Shown: piece by piece, positions 7,382 through 25,748 of the stretch
Layout of the letters: the number at the start of each line of letters is the position of its first letter
Position numbering within the stretch: position 1 is the first letter of the stretch
Assembly (NCBI RefSeq): GCF_014698825.1
Contig: NZ_JACJTT010000004.1
Coordinates: forward strand, 124,001-188,000
Direction of reading: 5' to 3'
Origin: Richelia sinica FACHB-800
Lineage (GTDB): Bacteria > Cyanobacteriota > Cyanobacteriia > Cyanobacteriales > Nostocaceae
Length of the DNA: 64,000 bases
Notes under the pieces: model-generated
What the model saw: only the letters and a program-made list of their open reading frames with translations
Databases searched by the model: none
What the model was told of the DNA's origin: nothing
Made by a program: the position numbers and the translations under genes

Positions 7382-8422
7382 TTAGGCATGTTTCCAGTTA
7401 ATCCAATCTTGAGGCTTGAGGAAGGTGTCATATAATTCTGCTTCTGGGGAATTGGGTTCTGGTTGATAGCCATATTCCCAACGTACTAGGGGAGGAAGGG
7501 ACATAAGAATGGATTCTGTCCGGCCATTGGTTTGCAGACCAAAAATTGTACCCCGGTCATAAACCAAGTTAAATTCCACATATCTGCCGCGACGATAAAG
7601 TTGGAAATTTCTTTCGCGATCGCCATACTCCATACCATGTCGCCGTTCGACAATCGGTGTATAAGCTGGTAAGAAGGCCTTGCCACTATCTTGAATAAAG
7701 GCAAATAAATCTTCCCAACTCCGCTGTGGTATGGGTTTGAGTTGGTTACTGTAAACCGCAGCAGGACCTTGAGGATCGGGTCCACGGTACAAAGTACCTT
7801 GACCATCTTGGTAGTCAAAGAACAAGCCACCAATGCCTCTAGTTTCACCGCGATGCTTCAAATAGAAGTATTCATCACACCAACGCTTAAATACTGGGTA
7901 ATATTCAGGATAATGTTGGTCACAAGCTTGCTTGAGAGTGCTGTGAAAATGGGCAGCATCCTCAGCAAAGGGATAGTAAGGTGTTAAATCGGCTCCGCCA
8001 CCAAACCACCACACTGGGCCGGCTTCAAAATAGCGATAATTGAGGTGGACAGTGGGCACATAGGGATTGCGGGGATGTAATACCAAAGAAGTACCAGTGG
8101 CATAAAAACCATGACCTGCGGCTTCTGGACGTTGAGCGAGAATGGAAGGAGGGAGATGAGAACCCCAAACTTCAGAAAAGTTTACACCTGCTTGTTCAAA
8201 AATAGCCCCTTCTCGCAAAATACGCGATCGCCCACCACCACCTTCTGGACGTTCCCAACTATCTTCTTGAAACTTACCAACACCATCTAAAGTCTCTAAA
8301 GCTTGAGTGATTTCCTCTTGCAGCTTTTTCATAAATTGGCTCACCCTAGCCTGAGCATCTGGTGCTGGCAGAGACTTAGAGGATTCTGTTGTGAGAGTGG
8401 GGGTTTGCGCGTTGATCAACAT
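7382..8422 (-). CDS. hemF: Oxygen-dependent coproporphyrinogen III oxidase, copy 1
   Basis: HemF converts coproporphyrinogen III to protoporphyrinogen IX using O2, upstream of both heme and chlorophyll. The 346-residue length is normal. The family core is intact: [42 protein letters not shown] and the C-terminal [17 protein letters not shown] with [16 protein letters not shown]. An N-terminal extension of about 25 residues is polar and variable. A second hemF lies 6 kb away (14553-15623); the two are clearly alike through the core but differ in the first 40 residues and in charge pattern. This copy stands alone with long gaps on both sides. Confidence 0.96.
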
Positions 8423-13196: not shown

Positions 13197-14273
13197 TTAA
13201 CGAACTGTGCCTTTCAAGGCTTCTGTATTAACTGGTTTGATGAAGAATATCCGCAGCAAATTGACAACTATGGCAGTGATCAAGGGAATTTTACGCATCA
13301 GTTTCAAGAACTTAGGTTGAGAACTGCGCTCAATAGCGGATATTTTTAAGTTGTAATTTGAGCAGCTATGCAGAAGAGGGAAAAATTGGGGATGTTGGGT
13401 ATTGAGCATAACTGGAAATGCTCTACCTGCGGTGTCATTGGTATTGATAACTACTTGACTGTCAAAGTCTGTGGGGTCAATTCCCAATGAATGATAAAAA
13501 CTTGCCCGTTCATGCACTGTCAAGGTGTGGGTAGCAAAGACTGAGAGGAGGAAAAATCTGCTCCAAAGTCTTGCTTTCCAGTTGTTCCACATTTTTGGTT
13601 GGGAACGTAGTAAAGCTTTGAAGATATCACCATGGCGGTTTTCATCCTGACACCAACTTTCAAAGTAGCGGAAAATTGGATAAAACTGATTTTCTGGGTG
13701 TTTTTGTAAATGGTGATAAATCAAAATGTAGCGCCAATAGCCAATCTTTTCTGATAAATAAACGGTGTAAATTACCCATTCAATGGGGAAAAATGTATAA
13801 GTACGGGTTTTGGTAATATCAGCTAAATCTAGGGATAGTTTAAAATCACCCATGGCTTTATTCAGAAATCCAGCATGGCGGGCTTCATCTCTGGCCATGA
13901 GGTGAAATAGTTCTGATAATAATGGATTGCGTTTTTTGAGTTGGCGAGATAGTTCTTTAAACAGCAGAAATCCAGAAAATTCAGAGATACAAGAGCGTTC
14001 TAAATATTCAATAAAACCACGGCGGGCTTTACCTTCAATATGTTCCCAAGATTTGGCAAATTCTTCATCTCGCACAAAGTGGTTACGGTTATAGTCTGCC
14101 CGCATTTCTGCCACCATGGCTTGTAACTCGTTTTCTTGGGCGGAAAGATCCAAGCTGGCAGCGGTGTCAAAGTCTGTGGTGTAAAACCGAGGGGTGAGAA
14201 TAGTTTCTTGACTGGGCTGCTTAATTCCCTCTTTCGGTGCTTTGGGGGCTGATTGGGGGATGCTACTAACCAT
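13197..14273 (-). CDS. acsF: Mg-protoporphyrin IX monomethyl ester oxidative cyclase AcsF
   Basis: AcsF (ChlA, CHL27 in plants) forms the isocyclic ring of chlorophyll and needs O2 and a di-iron centre. The 358-residue protein has both iron-binding motifs: ARDEARH with E130 and H133, and CQDENRH with E211 and H214. The upstream ligand region ERSCISEFSGFLLFKEL is also present. The hydrophobic C-terminal segment (about 327-350) may be a membrane anchor. The gene diverges from hemF copy 2, hemN and a desaturase gene, a setting that suggests the low-oxygen paralogue (AcsFII/ChlAII), but sequence alone does not let me separate types I and II. Confidence 0.94.
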   Translation of the reverse strand: MVSSIPQSAPKAPKEGIKQPSQETILTPRFYTTDFDTAASLDLSAQENELQAMVAEMRADYNRNHFVRDEEFAKSWEHIEGKARRGFIEYLERSCISEFSGFLLFKELSRQLKKRNPLLSELFHLMARDEARHAGFLNKAMGDFKLSLDLADITKTRTYTFFPIEWVIYTVYLSEKIGYWRYILIYHHLQKHPENQFYPIFRYFESWCQDENRHGDIFKALLRSQPKMWNNWKARLWSRFFLLSVFATHTLTVHERASFYHSLGIDPTDFDSQVVINTNDTAGRAFPVMLNTQHPQFFPLLHSCSNYNLKISAIERSSQPKFLKLMRKIPLITAIVVNLLRIFFIKPVNTEALKGTVR

Positions 14274-14303
14274 GGTTGCTCCGTTAATTAGCTAAATACT
14301 TAG

Positions 14304-14319
14304 ATAACTAACAAGTTAT
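14304..14319. promoter_or_regulatory. Inverted repeat in the acsF/hemF copy 2 divergent region, possible operator
   Basis: ATAACT (14304-14309) and AGTTAT (14314-14319) are exact reverse complements with a 4-nt centre, about 30 bp upstream of the acsF start. The size suits a MarR-type or similar dimeric regulator. A second, imperfect dyad (TTAATCGATGTTAA) lies at 14510-14523 on the hemF side. Function is inferred only from position. Confidence 0.35.
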
Positions 14320-14552
14320 GATAAGAGTCATCATTTGGCTAGTCCCTGGAGTTGAAAGTTTTGCTAAGACGGATTGTTAGCATTTATATACAATGGCGAA
14401 AATCAACTTGGGCAAGGGTTTTAGGCATTAAGATTGGCAAAATCGGCGCTGGAATTTTATTAAGTTTTGAAAAAAAACATTTTTTATTGGCTTAATAACT
14501 ATAAAGTGATTAATCGATGTTAAACTCTTAAACAGTTGAAAGGAATTGCGGC

Positions 14553-15623
14553 ATGGGAGCTTACTCAAAGAATCATCTGCGGGAATCCACAAATCTAGAT
14601 ACATTGGTTAATTCAGCTAATAACCCACCTGTAGATTCACGCCAACGGGCCAAGCAGTTTATGCTGAATATACAGGATGAAATTTGCGCCGCCCTGGAAG
14701 AACTGGATGGAGAGGCCCGTTTTCGTCAAGACTGCTGGCAACGTCGAGAAGGTGGAGAAGGACGTACCCGTGTGATTCGGGAGGGTCGAGTATTTGAGCA
14801 AGGTGGGGTAAATTTTTCTGAAGTTTGGGGAGATAGTCTACCACCTTCGATTTTGAGTCAACGCCCAGAAGCTGCGGGACAAGGCTTTTTTGCTACTGGT
14901 ACTTCCATGGTGCTGCATCCTCGCAATCCCTATGTCCCAACGGTGCATTTAAACTATCGTTATTTTGAAGCTGGGCCTGTGTGGTGGTTTGGTGGTGGGG
15001 CTGATTTAACGCCTTATTATCCCTTTACAGAAGATGCTATTCATTTTCACCAAACTTTTAAGTCTGCCTGTGACCAACATCATCCTGAATACTATGCCAC
15101 TTTTAAACCTTGGTGTGATGAGTATTTCTATTTAAGACATCGCCAAGAACAACGGGGAATTGGTGGTATTTTCTTTGATTATCAAGATGCCAGTGGCAAG
15201 TTGTATGTAGGTTCTCAGTCTGATAGTCCGGCAGCACTTTATAGTGAAAAAGTGGGGACAGTCACTCGGAATTGGGAAGATTTATTTGCTTTTGTTCAAT
15301 CTTGTGGCAAAGCATTTTTACCTGCTTATTTACCCATTGCCCAATTAAGACAAAAAATGGCATATGGGGAAGGTCAGCGTCAATTCCAACTCTACCGTCG
15401 GGGTCGTTATGTAGAGTTTAATTTGGTATACGATCGCGGTACGGTATTCGGTTTACAAACCAATGGTAGGGCGGAATCTATTTTAATGTCTCTGCCACCT
15501 TTAACCCGGTGGGAATATGGGTATGAACCAGAGGCAGATTCACCAGAAGCCCAATTAACTAAGTTTTTCCTTCAGCCTCAAGATTGGGCCAGTGGTTTGA
15601 TAGCGGCAGAATACAGCATTTAG
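14553..15623 (+). CDS. hemF: Oxygen-dependent coproporphyrinogen III oxidase, copy 2
   Basis: A second complete HemF of 356 residues, with [45 protein letters not shown] and [15 protein letters not shown] all conserved. It is highly similar to copy 1 throughout the core but has its own N-terminus (about 35 residues) and C-terminal tail, so it is an established paralogue rather than a recent tandem duplicate. The ATG at 14553 follows an AAAGGA. It leads a plus-strand group with hemN (137 bp downstream) and a desaturase gene, and diverges from acsF. Having O2-dependent and O2-independent enzymes in one group suggests a shift between oxygen regimes, perhaps with a different O2 affinity for this copy. 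Confidence 0.95.
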
Positions 15624-15759
15624 TGGAAAAATAGTGAGTTCAGTTGTTTTGGTAATTGGTAATTGGTGAGAAAAATAAGTTGAAATTTAGCCATCAATTA
15701 TCAATTACTAATCATAGGTTGAATCAGAATTTGATGTGTATTTTTGATGCGATGGGCAC

Positions 15760-17157
15760 ATGAAAGTTTTATCACAAACAGTTAAATTTGATGCTGATTT
15801 ACTCAAGAAATATGATCAGCCTTTACCCCGTTATACTAGCTATCCCCCAGCTACAGAGTTAACAGAAAATTTTAGCCATGTAGATTTTACAAATGCGATC
15901 GCTGTTGGCAATGAGAAAAATACCCCTCTATCAGTCTATTGCCACATTCCCTTTTGTGATAGCCCTTGCTATTTTTGCTGTTGCAATACTGTAATTACAC
16001 CACACAAGGTCTTAGCAGAACCATATCTCAACTATCTGATTCGCAATATTCATCAGGTGGGGTCGTTGATTGATAGCGATCGCACTGTACAACAGTTACA
16101 TTGGGGTGGAGGTACTCCTAACTATTTATCTCTCAGTCAAGTTGAGACTTTGTGGAGAGCATTAACTGACCATTTTCGCTTTGATGATAATGGGGAAATT
16201 TCCATCGAAGTTAATCCGCGCTCCCTTGACCGAAACTACCTATTTTTCCTCAAGCAATTAGGCTTTAATCGCATTAGTTTTGGGATTCAGGATTTTAACT
16301 ATCAAGTACAACAAGCAGTAAATCGCATTCAACCAGAATCCATGTTATTTCAAGTCATGGATTGGGTGCGGGAAGCTGGATTTACTAGCGTTAATGTTGA
16401 CCTGATTTATGGTTTGCCATATCAAAATTTGGAAACTTTTAAAGATACTGTTCGCAAGACTATTAAATTGAATCCTGACCGCATTGCGGTTTTCAACTTT
16501 GCCTATGTACCTTGGTTAAAGCCTGTTCAGCGTTTACTTCCTCAAGCAGCATTACCATCACCAGGGGAAAAACTAGATATCATGCGGATGACCATTGAGG
16601 AATTGACAGCTAATGGTTATGTCTTTATTGGCATGGATCATTTTGCCAAACCCAACGACGAATTAGCGATCGCTCAACAAAATGGCCAACTACATCGCAA
16701 TTTTCAAGGATATACCACTAAACCAGAATCAGATTTGTTTGGTTTTGGTATGACATCCATTAGTATGCTGCAAGATGTCTACACTCAAAACCAGAAACAA
16801 TTAAAGCGTTATTATCAAAAAGTAGATCATGGAGAATTACCAATTGAAAAAGGAGTAAAACTCCACCAAGATGACATTATCCGGCGGACAATTATTATGG
16901 AATTGATGTGCCAGTTCCAACTTTCACCAGAGGAAATAGAGAAAAAATATCACTTACATTTAGATTTCAAGTTTGCGGAGTATTTTCAACAAGCAAAATT
17001 ACAATTACAACATCTAGAGACGGATGGGTTAGTGAAGCTATCTACCGATAAGATTGAGGTTACACCTGCGGGAAGATTACTGATTAGGAACATAGCCTCT
17101 ATATTTGATGCCTATCTTCCTAGTCGTAGCTTGACTGATTTTTCTAAATCAATTTGA
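15760..17157 (+). CDS. hemN: Oxygen-independent coproporphyrinogen III oxidase HemN (radical SAM)
   Basis: HemN performs the same conversion as HemF without O2, using a [4Fe-4S] cluster and SAM. The cluster motif is C66-DSP-C70-YF-C73 with a further C75, inside YCHIPFCDSPCYFCCCN; this matches true HemN (CxxxCxxCxC) rather than HemW. HWGGGTPNYL, EVNPRSL and FGIQDFN are further family motifs. The length of 465 residues is typical. An extra cysteine (C74) replaces the usual glycine in CGCN. It lies downstream of hemF copy 2, and a desaturase gene follows. In Synechococcus sp. PCC 7002, hemN is in a low-oxygen operon with acsFII, ho2 and desF. Confidence 0.95.
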   Translation: MKVLSQTVKFDADLLKKYDQPLPRYTSYPPATELTENFSHVDFTNAIAVGNEKNTPLSVYCHIPFCDSPCYFCCCNTVITPHKVLAEPYLNYLIRNIHQVGSLIDSDRTVQQLHWGGGTPNYLSLSQVETLWRALTDHFRFDDNGEISIEVNPRSLDRNYLFFLKQLGFNRISFGIQDFNYQVQQAVNRIQPESMLFQVMDWVREAGFTSVNVDLIYGLPYQNLETFKDTVRKTIKLNPDRIAVFNFAYVPWLKPVQRLLPQAALPSPGEKLDIMRMTIEELTANGYVFIGMDHFAKPNDELAIAQQNGQLHRNFQGYTTKPESDLFGFGMTSISMLQDVYTQNQKQLKRYYQKVDHGELPIEKGVKLHQDDIIRRTIIMELMCQFQLSPEEIEKKYHLHLDFKFAEYFQQAKLQLQHLETDGLVKLSTDKIEVTPAGRLLIRNIASIFDAYLPSRSLTDFSKSI

Positions 17158-17213
17158 AACCAAGTAACCTACAATTCAAAATCTCAAATCTACAATCTCA
17201 AATTCCAAATCTC

Positions 17214-18065
17214 ATGACCAATTTCATCTCCAATTCACCAGGGAAACCGGAACCACTCCATCTCAACTGGACAGCAGTAGCATTTTTCGGGGTAATTCAT
17301 GGATTAGCAATGTTGGCCCCTTGGTTTTTTTCTTGGGGTGCATTAGGTGTAACTATATTTCTCCACTGGTTATTTGGTAGCATTGGTGTGTGTTTAGGCT
17401 ACCATCGACTGTTGAGCCATCGCAGCTTTAAAGTCCCTAAATGGTTAGAATATGCGATCGCTATTCTTGGTGCATTATCCATTCAGGGAGGGCCGATTTT
17501 CTGGGTCGCTGGCCATCGTTTACATCATGCCTACACCGAACACGAAGATAAAGACCCCTATTCTGCTCAACGGGGTTTTTGGTGGAGTCATATGCTGTGG
17601 ATTTTTTATCCCAAATCTGAGTTTTTCGACTACGATTATTATCAAAAATATGCCCCTGATTTAGCGCGAGACCCATTTTATTGCTGGCTAAATCGCTATT
17701 TCTTAGTTTTGCAAATTCCCGTAGCCATACTGCTCTATTTTATGGGTGGTTGGCCATATATCATCTATGGTGTATTTGTGAGAGCCGTGGTTCTCTGGCA
17801 CACAACTTGGCTAATTAATTCTGTTACCCATATGTGGGGATATCGCACCTTTGACAGTAATGATAATTCCCGCAACCTTTGGTGGGCAGCTATTCTTACC
17901 TATGGTGAGGGTTGGCATAACAATCACCATGCCTATCCTCATGTGGCAAAATGCGGTTGGCGTTGGTGGGAAATTGATTTAACTTGGTGGGTAATTGGAC
18001 TGTTAAAGACTATGGGTTTAGCTAAGGATGTCAACTTACCCCCGGCTTCAGCTTTCTCAGAATAG
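17214..18065 (+). CDS. Acyl-lipid desaturase, delta-9 type (desC/desF-like)
   Basis: The 283-residue membrane desaturase has the three His boxes: HRLLSHRS, HRLHHAYTEHEDKDP and HNNHHAYPH. These bind the di-iron centre of delta-9 acyl desaturases. Hydrophobic segments lie before the first box and between the second and third. I chose the ATG at 17214; an in-frame TTG at 17154 overlapping the hemN stop would add residues translated from an ATCTCAAATC-type repeat. The desaturase following hemN resembles the acsFII-ho2-hemN-desF operon of Synechococcus sp. PCC 7002, so desF is plausible, but substrate and regiochemistry are not readable here. Confidence 0.9.
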   Translation: MTNFISNSPGKPEPLHLNWTAVAFFGVIHGLAMLAPWFFSWGALGVTIFLHWLFGSIGVCLGYHRLLSHRSFKVPKWLEYAIAILGALSIQGGPIFWVAGHRLHHAYTEHEDKDPYSAQRGFWWSHMLWIFYPKSEFFDYDYYQKYAPDLARDPFYCWLNRYFLVLQIPVAILLYFMGGWPYIIYGVFVRAVVLWHTTWLINSVTHMWGYRTFDSNDNSRNLWWAAILTYGEGWHNNHHAYPHVAKCGWRWWEIDLTWWVIGLLKTMGLAKDVNLPPASAFSE

Positions 18066-22082: not shown

Positions 22083-25000
22083 ATGAAACGCATCGTCTTA
22101 ATTGCTGGGTTTGAATCGTTTAACGCTGACTTGTACCGGAAAGCCGCTTTTTTGGCTAATTCACGGGTACAGGAGTTGGATATTCGGGTGTTTAGCGATC
22201 GCGATATTAACACTAAACGCAGCGAGGTAGAAGCCGCACTCCAAGGTGCAGACGTGTTTTTTGGCAGTTTACTCTTTGATTATGACCAAGTGGTATGGTT
22301 ACGGGAACGTGTCGCTAATATTCCCATTCGTCTTGTCTTTGAGTCTGCACTAGAATTGATGAGTTTAACTAAGATTGGTGCCTTTGCTATTGGTGACAAA
22401 CCCAAAGGAATGCCAAAACCAGTTAAATTCATTCTCGATAAATTCAGCAATGGCAAAGAAGAAGATAAACTTGCTGGTTATATTAGTTTTCTGAAAATCG
22501 GTCCCAAACTCCTCAAATTTGTTCCCGTTCAAAAAGTTCAAGACCTCCGCAACTGGTTAATTATCTACGGTTACTGGAATGCTGGAGGTACAGAAAATGT
22601 TGCTGCCCTATTTTGGACATTAGCAGAAAAATATTTAGATTTACGAGTTGGTGAAATTCCCCCACCCATCGAAACACCCAACATGGGGTTACTTCATCCA
22701 GACTACCCAGGCTTTTTTACATCACCAAAACAATATTTAGATTGGTATCACAAAAAAGAAAAGGGCAGAAAGAATTTACCTGTCATTGGTATTCTCCTTT
22801 ATCGTAAACATGTTATTACTAAACAACCTTATATTCCCCAATTAATTAGCAAATTTGAAGCATCAGGTTTAATTCCCTTACCCATTTTCATCAACGGTGT
22901 AGAAGGACATGTAGCTGTCCGCGACTGGATGACCACCGACTATGAAACACAACAACGTCAACAAGGAAATATTGAAACTCCTTCTCTGTCCTCCGAAGCA
23001 GTGAAAGTTGATGCAATAGTTTCTACTATTGGGTTTCCCCTGGTGGGTGGGCCTGCGGGTTCCATGGAAGCAGGACGACAGGTGGAAGTTGCTAAACGCA
23101 TTCTTAGCGCCAAAAATTTACCTTATATTGTGGCTGCACCTTTGCTAATTCAAGATATTTATTCTTGGACACGTCAAGGTGTGGGAGGTTTGCAAAGTGT
23201 AGTTTTATATGCACTACCAGAATTAGATGGTGCAATTGATACTGTTCCCCTTGGTGGTTTAGTAGGAGAAAATATTTATTTAGTTCCTGAACGGGTACAG
23301 CGTTTAATTGGCAGAATCAAAAACTGGGTGGCATTACGTCAAAAACCTGCCTTTGCCAGAAAGATAGCCATTATTTTATATGGGTTTCCCCCTGGTTACG
23401 GTGCAGTGGGTACAGCAGCATTATTAAACGTTCCCCGCAGTTTAATTAAATTGCTTCACGCTTTAAAAGCACAGGGTTATCAAGTTGGTGATATTCCTGA
23501 AGATGGTGAAGAATTAATTCGTCAAGTAAAAGCAGCAGATGAAGAAATGGAAACATGGGAAAAAAATAAACCTTTTCCCATTGATGCCAATACAGTTAAT
23601 GCTCGTAAATTAGAAAAATGGTTAGGATATCTCCGCACTTCTCGCATTGAAAAACAATGGAAATCTTTAACCAGTAGTGGGATTAAAACCTATGGAGATG
23701 ATTTACATATTGGTGGTGTGCAGTTAGGAAATGTGTGGATAGGTGTACAACCACCATTGGGTTTACAAGGCGACCCCATGCGGTTAATGTTTGAGCGCGA
23801 TTTAACACCCCATCCCCAATATGCAGCATTTTATAAGTGGTTACAAAAAGAATTTCAAGCAGATGCAGTTGTCCATTTCGGAATGCACGGTACTGTTGAA
23901 TGGTTGCCTGGTTCCCCTTTAGGAAATACAGGCTATTCTTGGTCAGATATTTTGTTAGGAGATTTACCAAATTTATACATATATGCTGCTAATAATCCTT
24001 CGGAATCGATTTTAGCTAAACGCCGTGGTTATGGGGTATTAATTTCTCATAATGTTCCCCCCTATGGTCGGGCTGGTTTATATAAGGAATTGGTAGCATT
24101 ACGGGATTTAATTGCTGAATATCGGGAAGATCCGCAAAAGAATTATGTCTTAAAAGAAGGAATTTGTAAAAAGATTCTGGATACTGGTTTAGAAGTTGAT
24201 TGTCCATTTATAGAGGCGAAAAAGTTAGGTATTCCCTTTACACCAGAAAATATCAGGATGTTTAGTGCCCATGCTTTTGATGATTATTTGGTGAAGTTGT
24301 ATGAGTATTTACAGGTGTTAGAAAATCGCCTGTTTTCTTCTGGTTTGCATGTTTTGGGTGAAGCACCAAATGAGGAAGAGTTACAAGGTTATCTCAATGG
24401 GTATTTTGGTGAAAAAATAGAACTAGAAAGGCAAGAAGAAGCAAAGTTTATTACAGATTTGCTCAATCAATCTACTGATGAATTAACTAATCTTTTACGA
24501 GGTTTAAATGGTGAATATATTCCTCCTGCACCTGGTGGAGATTTGTTACGGGATGGTGCAGGTGTGTTACCAACTGGTAGAAATATTCACGCTTTAGATC
24601 CTTATCGAATGCCTTCTCCTGCTGCCTATGAACGGGGTAGAGAAATAGGACAGAAAATCATTGCTCAACATTTACAAGAACATGGCAAATATCCTGAAAC
24701 AGTCGCAGTTTTATTATGGGGTTTAGATGCCATTAAAACCAAGGGTGAATCTTTGGGAATTTTATTGGAATTAGTGGGTGCTGAACCAGTAAAAGAGGGA
24801 ACAGGAAGAATTGTGAGATATGAATTAAAACCTCTGGATAAAGTAGGACATCCCCGCATTGATGTGTTAGGAAATTTATCAGGAATTTTCCGCGATAGTT
24901 TTGTGAATATTATCGAATTATTGGATGATTTATTTCAACGTGCTGCGGATGCTGATGAACCAGAGGAACAGAACTTTATTCGCAAACATGCGTTGACATT

Positions 25001-25748
25001 GAAAGCGCAAGGTGTGGAAAATGCTTCTGCGCGATTATTTTCTAACCCAGCAGGTGATTTTGGTTCTTTGGTCAATGATAGAGTCGTGGACGGTAACTGG
25101 GACTCTGGAGATGAATTAGGGAAGACTTGGGAAAGCCGCAATGTGTTTAGTTACGGAAGACAGGATAAAGGACAAGCAAGACCGGAAGTTTTGCAGACTT
25201 TGTTAAAAACAAGCGATCGCATTGTTCAAGAAATAGATTCGGTAGAATATGGTTTAACTGATATTCAGGAATATTATGCCAATACTGGGGGATTGAAAAA
25301 AGCCGCAGAACAGCAAAGCGGGAAAAAGGTACAAGCTAGCTTTGTGGAAAGCTTCTCTAAAGATACAACACCCCGCAATTTAGATGATTTACTGCGAATG
25401 GAATACCGCACCAAATTATTAAACCCCAAATGGGCCGCAGCAATGGCTAATCAAGGTTCTGGTGGTGCATTTGAAATTTCCCAACGCATGACAGCTTTAA
25501 TTGGTTGGGGTGGTACTGCTGATTTTCGAGATCATTGGGTCTATGACCAAGCCGCAGATACCTATGCTTTAGACCCAGAAATGGCGGAAAAATTACGCCA
25601 AGCCAACCCAGAAGCATTTAGAAATATTGTCAGCAGAATGTTAGAAGCCCATGGCCGCGGTTTATGGAATGCTGATAGTAATAGGTTGGAAAAGTTGCGT
25701 CAATTATATGAGTTAAGTGATGAAGAATTGGAAGGTGTAACGGTTTAA
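22083..25748 (+). CDS. chlH: Magnesium chelatase subunit H, BchH-like 1221-residue form
   Basis: This is the large porphyrin-binding subunit that inserts Mg2+ into protoporphyrin IX with ChlD and ChlI. The core contains HFGMHGTVEWLPGSPLGNTG, AANNPSESILAKRRGYG and GYWNAGGTENVAALFWTLAE, all diagnostic of BchH/ChlH. At 1221 residues it is shorter than the main cyanobacterial ChlH (about 1330), and its start (MKRIVLIAGFESFNADLYRK) differs from that form. It is therefore probably the second, BchH-type paralogue known from several cyanobacteria. A CobN-like role is less likely given the close match. It stands about 4 kb from the acsF/hemF/hemN cluster. No chlD or chlI lies in the window. Confidence 0.88.
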   Translation: MKRIVLIAGFESFNADLYRKAAFLANSRVQELDIRVFSDRDINTKRSEVEAALQGADVFFGSLLFDYDQVVWLRERVANIPIRLVFESALELMSLTKIGAFAIGDKPKGMPKPVKFILDKFSNGKEEDKLAGYISFLKIGPKLLKFVPVQKVQDLRNWLIIYGYWNAGGTENVAALFWTLAEKYLDLRVGEIPPPIETPNMGLLHPDYPGFFTSPKQYLDWYHKKEKGRKNLPVIGILLYRKHVITKQPYIPQLISKFEASGLIPLPIFINGVEGHVAVRDWMTTDYETQQRQQGNIETPSLSSEAVKVDAIVSTIGFPLVGGPAGSMEAGRQVEVAKRILSAKNLPYIVAAPLLIQDIYSWTRQGVGGLQSVVLYALPELDGAIDTVPLGGLVGENIYLVPERVQRLIGRIKNWVALRQKPAFARKIAIILYGFPPGYGAVGTAALLNVPRSLIKLLHALKAQGYQVGDIPEDGEELIRQVKAADEEMETWEKNKPFPIDANTVNARKLEKWLGYLRTSRIEKQWKSLTSSGIKTYGDDLHIGGVQLGNVWIGVQPPLGLQGDPMRLMFERDLTPHPQYAAFYKWLQKEFQADAVVHFGMHGTVEWLPGSPLGNTGYSWSDILLGDLPNLYIYAANNPSESILAKRRGYGVLISHNVPPYGRAGLYKELVALRDLIAEYREDPQKNYVLKEGICKKILDTGLEVDCPFIEAKKLGIPFTPENIRMFSAHAFDDYLVKLYEYLQVLENRLFSSGLHVLGEAPNEEELQGYLNGYFGEKIELERQEEAKFITDLLNQSTDELTNLLRGLNGEYIPPAPGGDLLRDGAGVLPTGRNIHALDPYRMPSPAAYERGREIGQKIIAQHLQEHGKYPETVAVLLWGLDAIKTKGESLGILLELVGAEPVKEGTGRIVRYELKPLDKVGHPRIDVLGNLSGIFRDSFVNIIELLDDLFQRAADADEPEEQNFIRKHALTLKAQGVENASARLFSNPAGDFGSLVNDRVVDGNWDSGDELGKTWESRNVFSYGRQDKGQARPEVLQTLLKTSDRIVQEIDSVEYGLTDIQEYYANTGGLKKAAEQQSGKKVQASFVESFSKDTTPRNLDDLLRMEYRTKLLNPKWAAAMANQGSGGAFEISQRMTALIGWGGTADFRDHWVYDQAADTYALDPEMAEKLRQANPEAFRNIVSRMLEAHGRGLWNADSNRLEKLRQLYELSDEELEGVTV

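Follow-up and report, generated by a model that had tools for sequence, protein, structure and literature searches.

A divergent low-oxygen-type tetrapyrrole gene unit with a second HemF and a conserved promoter dyad in Richelia sinica FACHB-800

A 64,000-nucleotide stretch of the Richelia sinica FACHB-800 genome (G000, contig C34, positions 124001-188000), hereafter the window, was analyzed for a unit of tetrapyrrole and lipid genes at positions 13197-18065. The genome is 5.8 Mb in size and 99.99% complete. The unit is a variant of the known microoxic tetrapyrrole cluster of cyanobacteria. It contains an isoform of the oxygen-dependent coproporphyrinogen III oxidase HemF, it has no ho2, and its promoter carries a conserved putative operator unlike that of ChlR, the regulator named in review literature for the low-oxygen acsFII-ho2-hemN genes. 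It is probably a low-oxygen tetrapyrrole and lipid unit of second isoforms under a regulator other than ChlR that reads a dyad.

Gene content of the unit

The acsF gene, here acsF3 (13197..14273, minus strand), matched the AcsF equivalog profile TIGR02029 at 548 bits against a cut-off of 192. It diverges from hemF2 (14553..15623, plus strand), which encodes an oxygen-dependent coproporphyrinogen III oxidase of an acsFII-linked lineage (NF003727, 457 bits against a cut-off of 297). A gap of 136 bp (15624..15759) follows at the place where relatives (L014, L015, and others) carry a heme oxygenase (HO) gene. Next are hemN2 (15760..17157, plus strand), encoding a radical S-adenosylmethionine (SAM) coproporphyrinogen dehydrogenase (TIGR00538, 709 bits against a cut-off of 325), and a desF-type desaturase gene (17214..18065, plus strand). 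The open reading frame (ORF) caller placed the desaturase start at TTG 17154, within the hemN stop, and ATG 17214 is the likelier start. The product matched a desaturase profile below the profile's own cut-off; the one desaturase compared with it, from the Picosynechococcus PCC 7117 cluster, shared 71% identity.

The divergent arrangement given in a preliminary description of this DNA was therefore upheld, with AcsF, HemF, and HemN above curated profile cut-offs. Its classification as a low-oxygen-type cluster was supported by the type II AcsF, the desaturase identity and a HemF2 lineage apart from most housekeeping HemF.

A conserved dyad in the divergent promoter

An alignment of 13 acsF3-hemF2 intergenic regions, including that of the window, contained two conserved dyads, one near each gene. 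The left dyad in the window, ATAACT-AACA-AGTTAT (14304..14319), lies 30 bp from the acsF3 start codon. The right dyad, ATAACT-ATAA-AGTGAT (14495..14510), has one mismatch and lies 42 bp from the hemF2 start codon. Both are within 60 bp of start codons, a position that would fit a repressor. A sigma-70 scan of 14200-14620 found no promoter elements, and an Rfam scan of the window gave no match at gathering scores.

The pattern ATARCT-N4-AGYTAT was counted at up to one mismatch in 49 regions, among them the control from PCC 7117 and two that duplicate each other (L018, L067). It was present with a spacing of 4 in 34 of the 49 and with any other spacing from 1 to 9 in 0 to 3. Removal of the control, the duplicate and three non-divergent pieces left 44 cluster promoters. 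The dyad was found in 32 of these, compared to 0.4 expected from dinucleotide shuffles. All 13 regions that suggested the pattern carried it, as did 19 of the remaining 31. Three regions (L027, L028, and L029) had ATCACT-N4-AGTGAT, with both halves changed and the symmetry kept. The dyad preceded 30 of the 37 genes of the HemF2 clade described below, 6 of 9 acsF-adjacent HemF genes outside it and 3 of 57 other HemF genes; these three (L072, L022, and L127) group with acsF-linked copies in the HemF tree. None of four type I acsF promoters had a dyad upstream. Five 14-letter forms of the dyad, looked for in the open-licence literature, led to one unrelated paper, and the dyad appears to be newly found here as a candidate operator.

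The exact pattern occurred at two places only in the R. sinica genome, one being the promoter of the unit. The other is at C77:50999 (L201 5000-5015), between a 977-aa ORF and a PAS-GGDEF-like ORF, and its center, TTTG, departs from the consensus.

A stricter pattern, ATARCTATARAGYTAT, was searched for across 99 family genomes. It was found at 32 places in 28 genomes compared to 4 for the reversed control, and at no place in the R. sinica genome. Low-oxygen tetrapyrrole promoters, assigned by neighboring genes, accounted for 22 of the 32 places. Twelve were acsF3/hemF2 promoters, one of them (G130) with a hemF remnant only. The ten others comprised six at hemN/ho2 or acsF2 of other low-oxygen clusters and four at bchE. 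BchE was identified by profile TIGR02026 at two places (525 and 652 bits against 481, the proteins being cut by the locus end) and by 92-94% identity at the other two. Within the family bchE, encoding the oxygen-independent cyclase, was seen in loci L194, L197, L198, L199, and L204, with the dyad upstream in the first four. It adjoins hemN2 in L194 and L204.

ChlR and its box

The ChlR box is quoted as TTMCC-N3/4-GGWAA in PMC5295598 and PMC13421787. The positive control, the cluster of Picosynechococcus PCC 7117 (L149), contained chlR, acsFII, ho2, hemN, desF, and an exact TTACC-TGG-GGTAA box. Even when two mismatches were allowed, neither strand of the window's divergent region held a box, nor did either strand of the promoter of a second low-oxygen cluster on contig C12 of the same genome. 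Searching with PCC 7117 ChlR gave two HxlR-type homologues in the R. sinica genome, with 42% and 44% identity over about 90 residues. Neither is in the window or adjoins the unit. Counted from the first Met, each of the two has a single Cys ahead of the helix region, compared to two in PCC 7117 ChlR. Neither L153 nor L154 contained ATAACT-N4-AGTTAT at one mismatch as a sign of autoregulation of the two homologues. A MarR_2 search of the genome gave ten places, three above the cut-off and none in the window.

In relatives chlR was sought in the DNA around the clusters, where it turned up at four loci. Besides L149, these are L053, L017, and L124, whose clusters adjoin genes for proteins with 68-78% identity to PCC 7117 ChlR. 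All four loci have an exact or one-mismatch ChlR box and no dyad within two mismatches. A one-mismatch box was also present in L084, L038, L029, and the L036 piece among the 49 regions.

Enzyme lineages and integrity

Trees were built by quick searches with support from the Shimodaira-Hasegawa-like approximate likelihood ratio test (SH-aLRT). The AcsF tree (69 rows) split type I (4 rows) from type II (65 rows) with a support of 100, and the AcsF of the window was type II; a type I assignment was rejected on this basis. This is the phylogeny that the preliminary description had proposed as a check. Within type II the window protein fell in a 35-row subgroup (SH-aLRT 99). PCC 7117 AcsFII and the C12 copy belonged to a separate 12-row subgroup (SH-aLRT 99).

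The HemF tree (103 rows) was midpoint-rooted and its acsF-linked labels were set by hand. HemF2 of the window fell in a 37-row clade (SH-aLRT 95) apart from the other 66 rows. The hand-set label applied to 36 of the 37 rows and 33 were strictly adjacent to acsF. The rows lacking a strictly adjacent acsF were L019, L033, L055, and L060, three of which carried the label. A first HemF copy is indeed present, as the description of HemF2 as a paralogue implied. This is hemF1, the housekeeping copy (7382..8422, minus strand), whose product is 70% identical to HemF2.

AcsF3 retained 18 of 18 invariant D/E/H columns and both DExRH motifs. HemF2 retained 155 of 160 columns that are near-invariant in the other 66 HemF rows, and AcsF3 and HemF2 of the window had no departures at near-invariant columns. 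HemN2 matched its profile, contained the CX3CX2CXC motif and grouped with HemN of the G035 and G077 clusters (support 95). The HemN set comprised 40 rows, in which two pairs were the same gene from overlapping loci (L161/L202 and L173/L205).

Gene order in relatives and the place of ho2

The R. sinica genome has three AcsF copies, two HemF, two HemN plus one 25% homologue, and two heme oxygenases. As first described, neither ho2 nor chlR was present within the 64-kb window. The genome search for ho2 located it outside the window in the second low-oxygen cluster, on C12, which comprises acsF2 (minus strand), ho2 (C12:13113-13721, plus strand), and hemN1 (plus strand).

Two genomes of the same family, G035 and G077, have acsF diverging from hemF2-ho2-hemN2, with desF also in G035. 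The order hemF2-ho2-hemN2 occurs in Westiellopsis, Hydrococcus, and Leptolyngbya PCC 7375, hemF2-ho2-desF in Nostoc carneum, Calothrix membranacea, and N. linckia FACHB-104, and hemF2-desF in Trichormus NMC-1 and Anabaena UHCC 0204. Clusters lacking hemF2, with acsF diverging from ho2-hemN-desF, were seen in other families (L034, L038, and L040). The gene-order table comprised 34 acsF/hemF loci for which 4 kb or more of downstream sequence was available, or 30 distinct loci after removal of four duplicates. HO followed hemF2 in 13 of the 30 and hemN was present in 9. Eight of these nine also keep HO, the window being the sole case of hemN without it. None of HO, hemN, and desF was downstream in 16 of the 34 rows, three of which were duplicates. 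The desF of the window is itself absent from the table, probably owing to its overlap with hemN. The constant element is the divergent acsFII/hemF2 promoter, and the remaining genes come and go. In genome G130 hemF2 has shrunk to a 70-residue stretch between acsF3 and hemN2 (L166 1560-1769).

HemF2 and HemN across the order

The survey covered 120 genomes drawn evenly from the order, with lists copied by hand. Genomes were counted as AcsFII-positive when they had two or more AcsF matches and the best E-value was not above about 1e-147; G028 and G070 were added to the positives, and G010, G026, G030, and G039 were counted as negative. Two HemF matches, rather than tree placement, defined a hemF2-positive genome. 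Two HemF were found in 18 of 69 genomes with AcsFII and in 0 of 51 without. Among the AcsFII genomes two HemF were found in 11 of 17 without hemN compared to 7 of 52 with hemN (Fisher p 1e-4, uncorrected for kinship), and 6 of the 11 hemN-less genomes belong to one family. Given this excess HemF2 looks like an alternative to HemN, and not to HO2, across genomes. The preliminary description had suggested that HemF and HemN, paired in one unit, may serve over a range of oxygen levels; the genome counts favor alternatives over such a pairing.

Neighboring genes

A magnesium chelatase H gene lies at 22083-25748, 4 kb downstream of the unit, and hemF1 lies 5 kb upstream. An 872-aa ORF resembling a PAS histidine kinase (L011 2763-5381) adjoins acsF2 of the second low-oxygen cluster. 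L165 has an ORF of this kind as well, its end 150 bp ahead of a dyad.

Comparison with known systems

The chlAII(acsFII)-ho2-hemN-desF operon of Synechococcus 7002 and Picosynechococcus, with chlR, shares with the window unit the occurrence together of AcsFII, HemN, and a DesF-type desaturase as second isoforms. The window unit differs in being divergent (L149 is co-directional), in the addition of hemF2 and the absence of ho2, and in having a different dyad with no ChlR box and no adjacent chlR. Synechocystis 6803 chlAII-ho2-hemN, as described in PMC4500134, encodes low-oxygen enzymes for the same steps. In that description it is under ChlR control and has no hemF2 or desF, unlike the window.

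A 2015 review (PMC4500134, Table 1, footnote e) notes for Anabaena 7120 a hemF/chlAII pair whose two genes point away from a common direction, so the divergent hemF/acsFII arrangement is not new. From the gene numbers this pair would be all1357/alr1358, and its likeness to the window is one of description. The locus tags alr1878 and all1880 and their neighbors were a dead end, as alr1878 is hemC. Expression data in PMC7065334 give hemF2 all1357 as up 17.9-fold and the cyclase alr1358 as up 4.2-fold in a delta-cse mutant, while nif genes fall. In PMC4788461 alr1358 is listed as down 2.2-fold on FurA turn-off, with a negative electrophoretic mobility shift assay. The one HemF listed for Acaryochloris marina in PMC5295598 was not up under microoxia, where AcsF, HO, and HemN were. 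Tolyporphin gene clusters (PMC10459692) also place a second HemF by tetrapyrrole genes in filamentous cyanobacteria. That HemF2 is given a similarity of 38% to canonical HemF, and its neighbors are hemABCE and tol genes. The window HemF2 differs in being 70% identical to HemF1, and its surrounding ORFs are not hemABCE or tol. No report of a low-oxygen HemF isoform was found in the open-licence literature searched.

Discussion

The unit would supply second isoforms for the chlorophyll E ring (AcsFII), coproporphyrinogen oxidation (HemF2 and HemN), and fatty-acid desaturation (DesF). One divergent promoter would drive both arms, and the two ATARCT-N4-AGYTAT copies would let one regulator control the acsF3 and hemF2 arms in response to oxygen. 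That regulator is probably not ChlR. The same putative operator precedes other low-oxygen genes in related genomes, namely ho2-hemN of the second cluster type and bchE, and may mark them as its targets. HemF2 would be the low-oxygen counterpart of HemF1, presumably with an oxygen affinity to match, in parallel to the pairs AcsFII/AcsFI and HO2/HO1. The ho2 found between hemF2 and hemN2 in relatives may have been lost from the window lineage, a loss that would be affordable because the C12 cluster holds ho2 and hemN.

Several observations weigh against this explanation. The promoter of the C12 cluster holds only two-mismatch dyad sites. Ten of the 32 strict places lie elsewhere; these were viewed by ORF, and profiles gave the names of two products there, an XDD3 surface protein and CruF. 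Since acsF3/hemF2 promoters were the source of the pattern, there is some circularity in counting the 12 places of that kind among the 22. At bchE the distance from dyad to start codon is 228-620 bp, unlike the 30-42 bp in the window, making control there less sure. The HemF2 clade stands on a short branch (0.017). Nine acsF-adjacent HemF fall outside the clade, indicating that such pairings formed, or switched partner, on more than one occasion. Five AcsFII genomes (G034, G057, G076, G093, and G110) have a single hemF, located beside acsFII, and a hemF can therefore adjoin acsFII without being a second copy. In HemN2 residue 74, located after the third and before the fourth Cys of the radical-SAM cluster motif, is itself Cys, where the 39 other HemN rows all have Gly. 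The dyad and a one-mismatch ChlR box occur together in L084 and L038. Lastly, Anabaena 7120 is credited with chlR by BLAST in Table 1 of PMC4500134, which leaves room for the dyad to be read by a diverged ChlR.

This last point belongs to the strongest alternative, in which the unit would be a microoxic operon of the ordinary Synechococcus 7002 kind, regulated by a diverged ChlR that reads the dyad. Its gene set is the same apart from ho2 and hemF2, the two HxlR-type homologues are available in the genome, and L084 and L038 have both a one-mismatch box and a dyad. We nevertheless regard it as unlikely. The window has no chlR match, the box is missing from both R. sinica promoters, the homologues lack one of the two Cys, and at the four loci seen where a close ChlR adjoins a cluster the box is there and the dyad is not. 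Less likely again is a redundant, decaying duplicate in which ho2 has gone, hemN2 has been damaged by Gly74Cys, and HemF1 and the C12 cluster do the work. The mosaic gene content among relatives, the unique Gly74 change and the hemF remnant of G130 would suit decay, but AcsF3 and HemF2 are intact at their near-invariant columns and the putative operators have been kept.

A unit specific to heterocysts, serving pigment synthesis in the anoxic cells that fix nitrogen, is very improbable. The nearest named relatives, for example Trichormus, Calothrix, and Nostoc, are heterocyst-formers, but carriers also include Hydrococcus, Hyella, Symploca, and Leptolyngbya PCC 7375, which are not known to form heterocysts. 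The Anabaena pair moreover rises as nif falls in the delta-cse data of PMC7065334. The heterocyst link offered in the preliminary description is accordingly weak, and a restriction to heterocysts was rejected. The same description placed HemF2 in the position of heme oxygenase. The lack of ho2 between hemF2 and hemN2 in the window would suggest this, but a functional replacement is almost certainly wrong, as hemF2 and ho2 co-occur in relatives, HemF and heme oxygenase catalyze different reactions, and ho2 exists on C12. HemF2 as a stand-in for HO2 was therefore rejected.

A low-oxygen unit of second isoforms read through the dyad remains the preferred explanation. Whether its wider form also holds is evenly balanced: a regulator other than ChlR would govern a low-oxygen regulon of acsFII, hemF2, ho2, hemN, and bchE across much of the order, with HemF2 as a dedicated low-oxygen isoform. 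If true, HemF2 adds a dedicated isoform to a step thought to be covered under low oxygen by HemN and ordinary HemF, and the HemF isoforms join the AcsF and HO isoform pairs. A conserved second operator would imply another oxygen or redox sensor in many cyanobacteria. The dyad is the part most worth pursuing, as it gives an exact DNA bait for finding that regulator.

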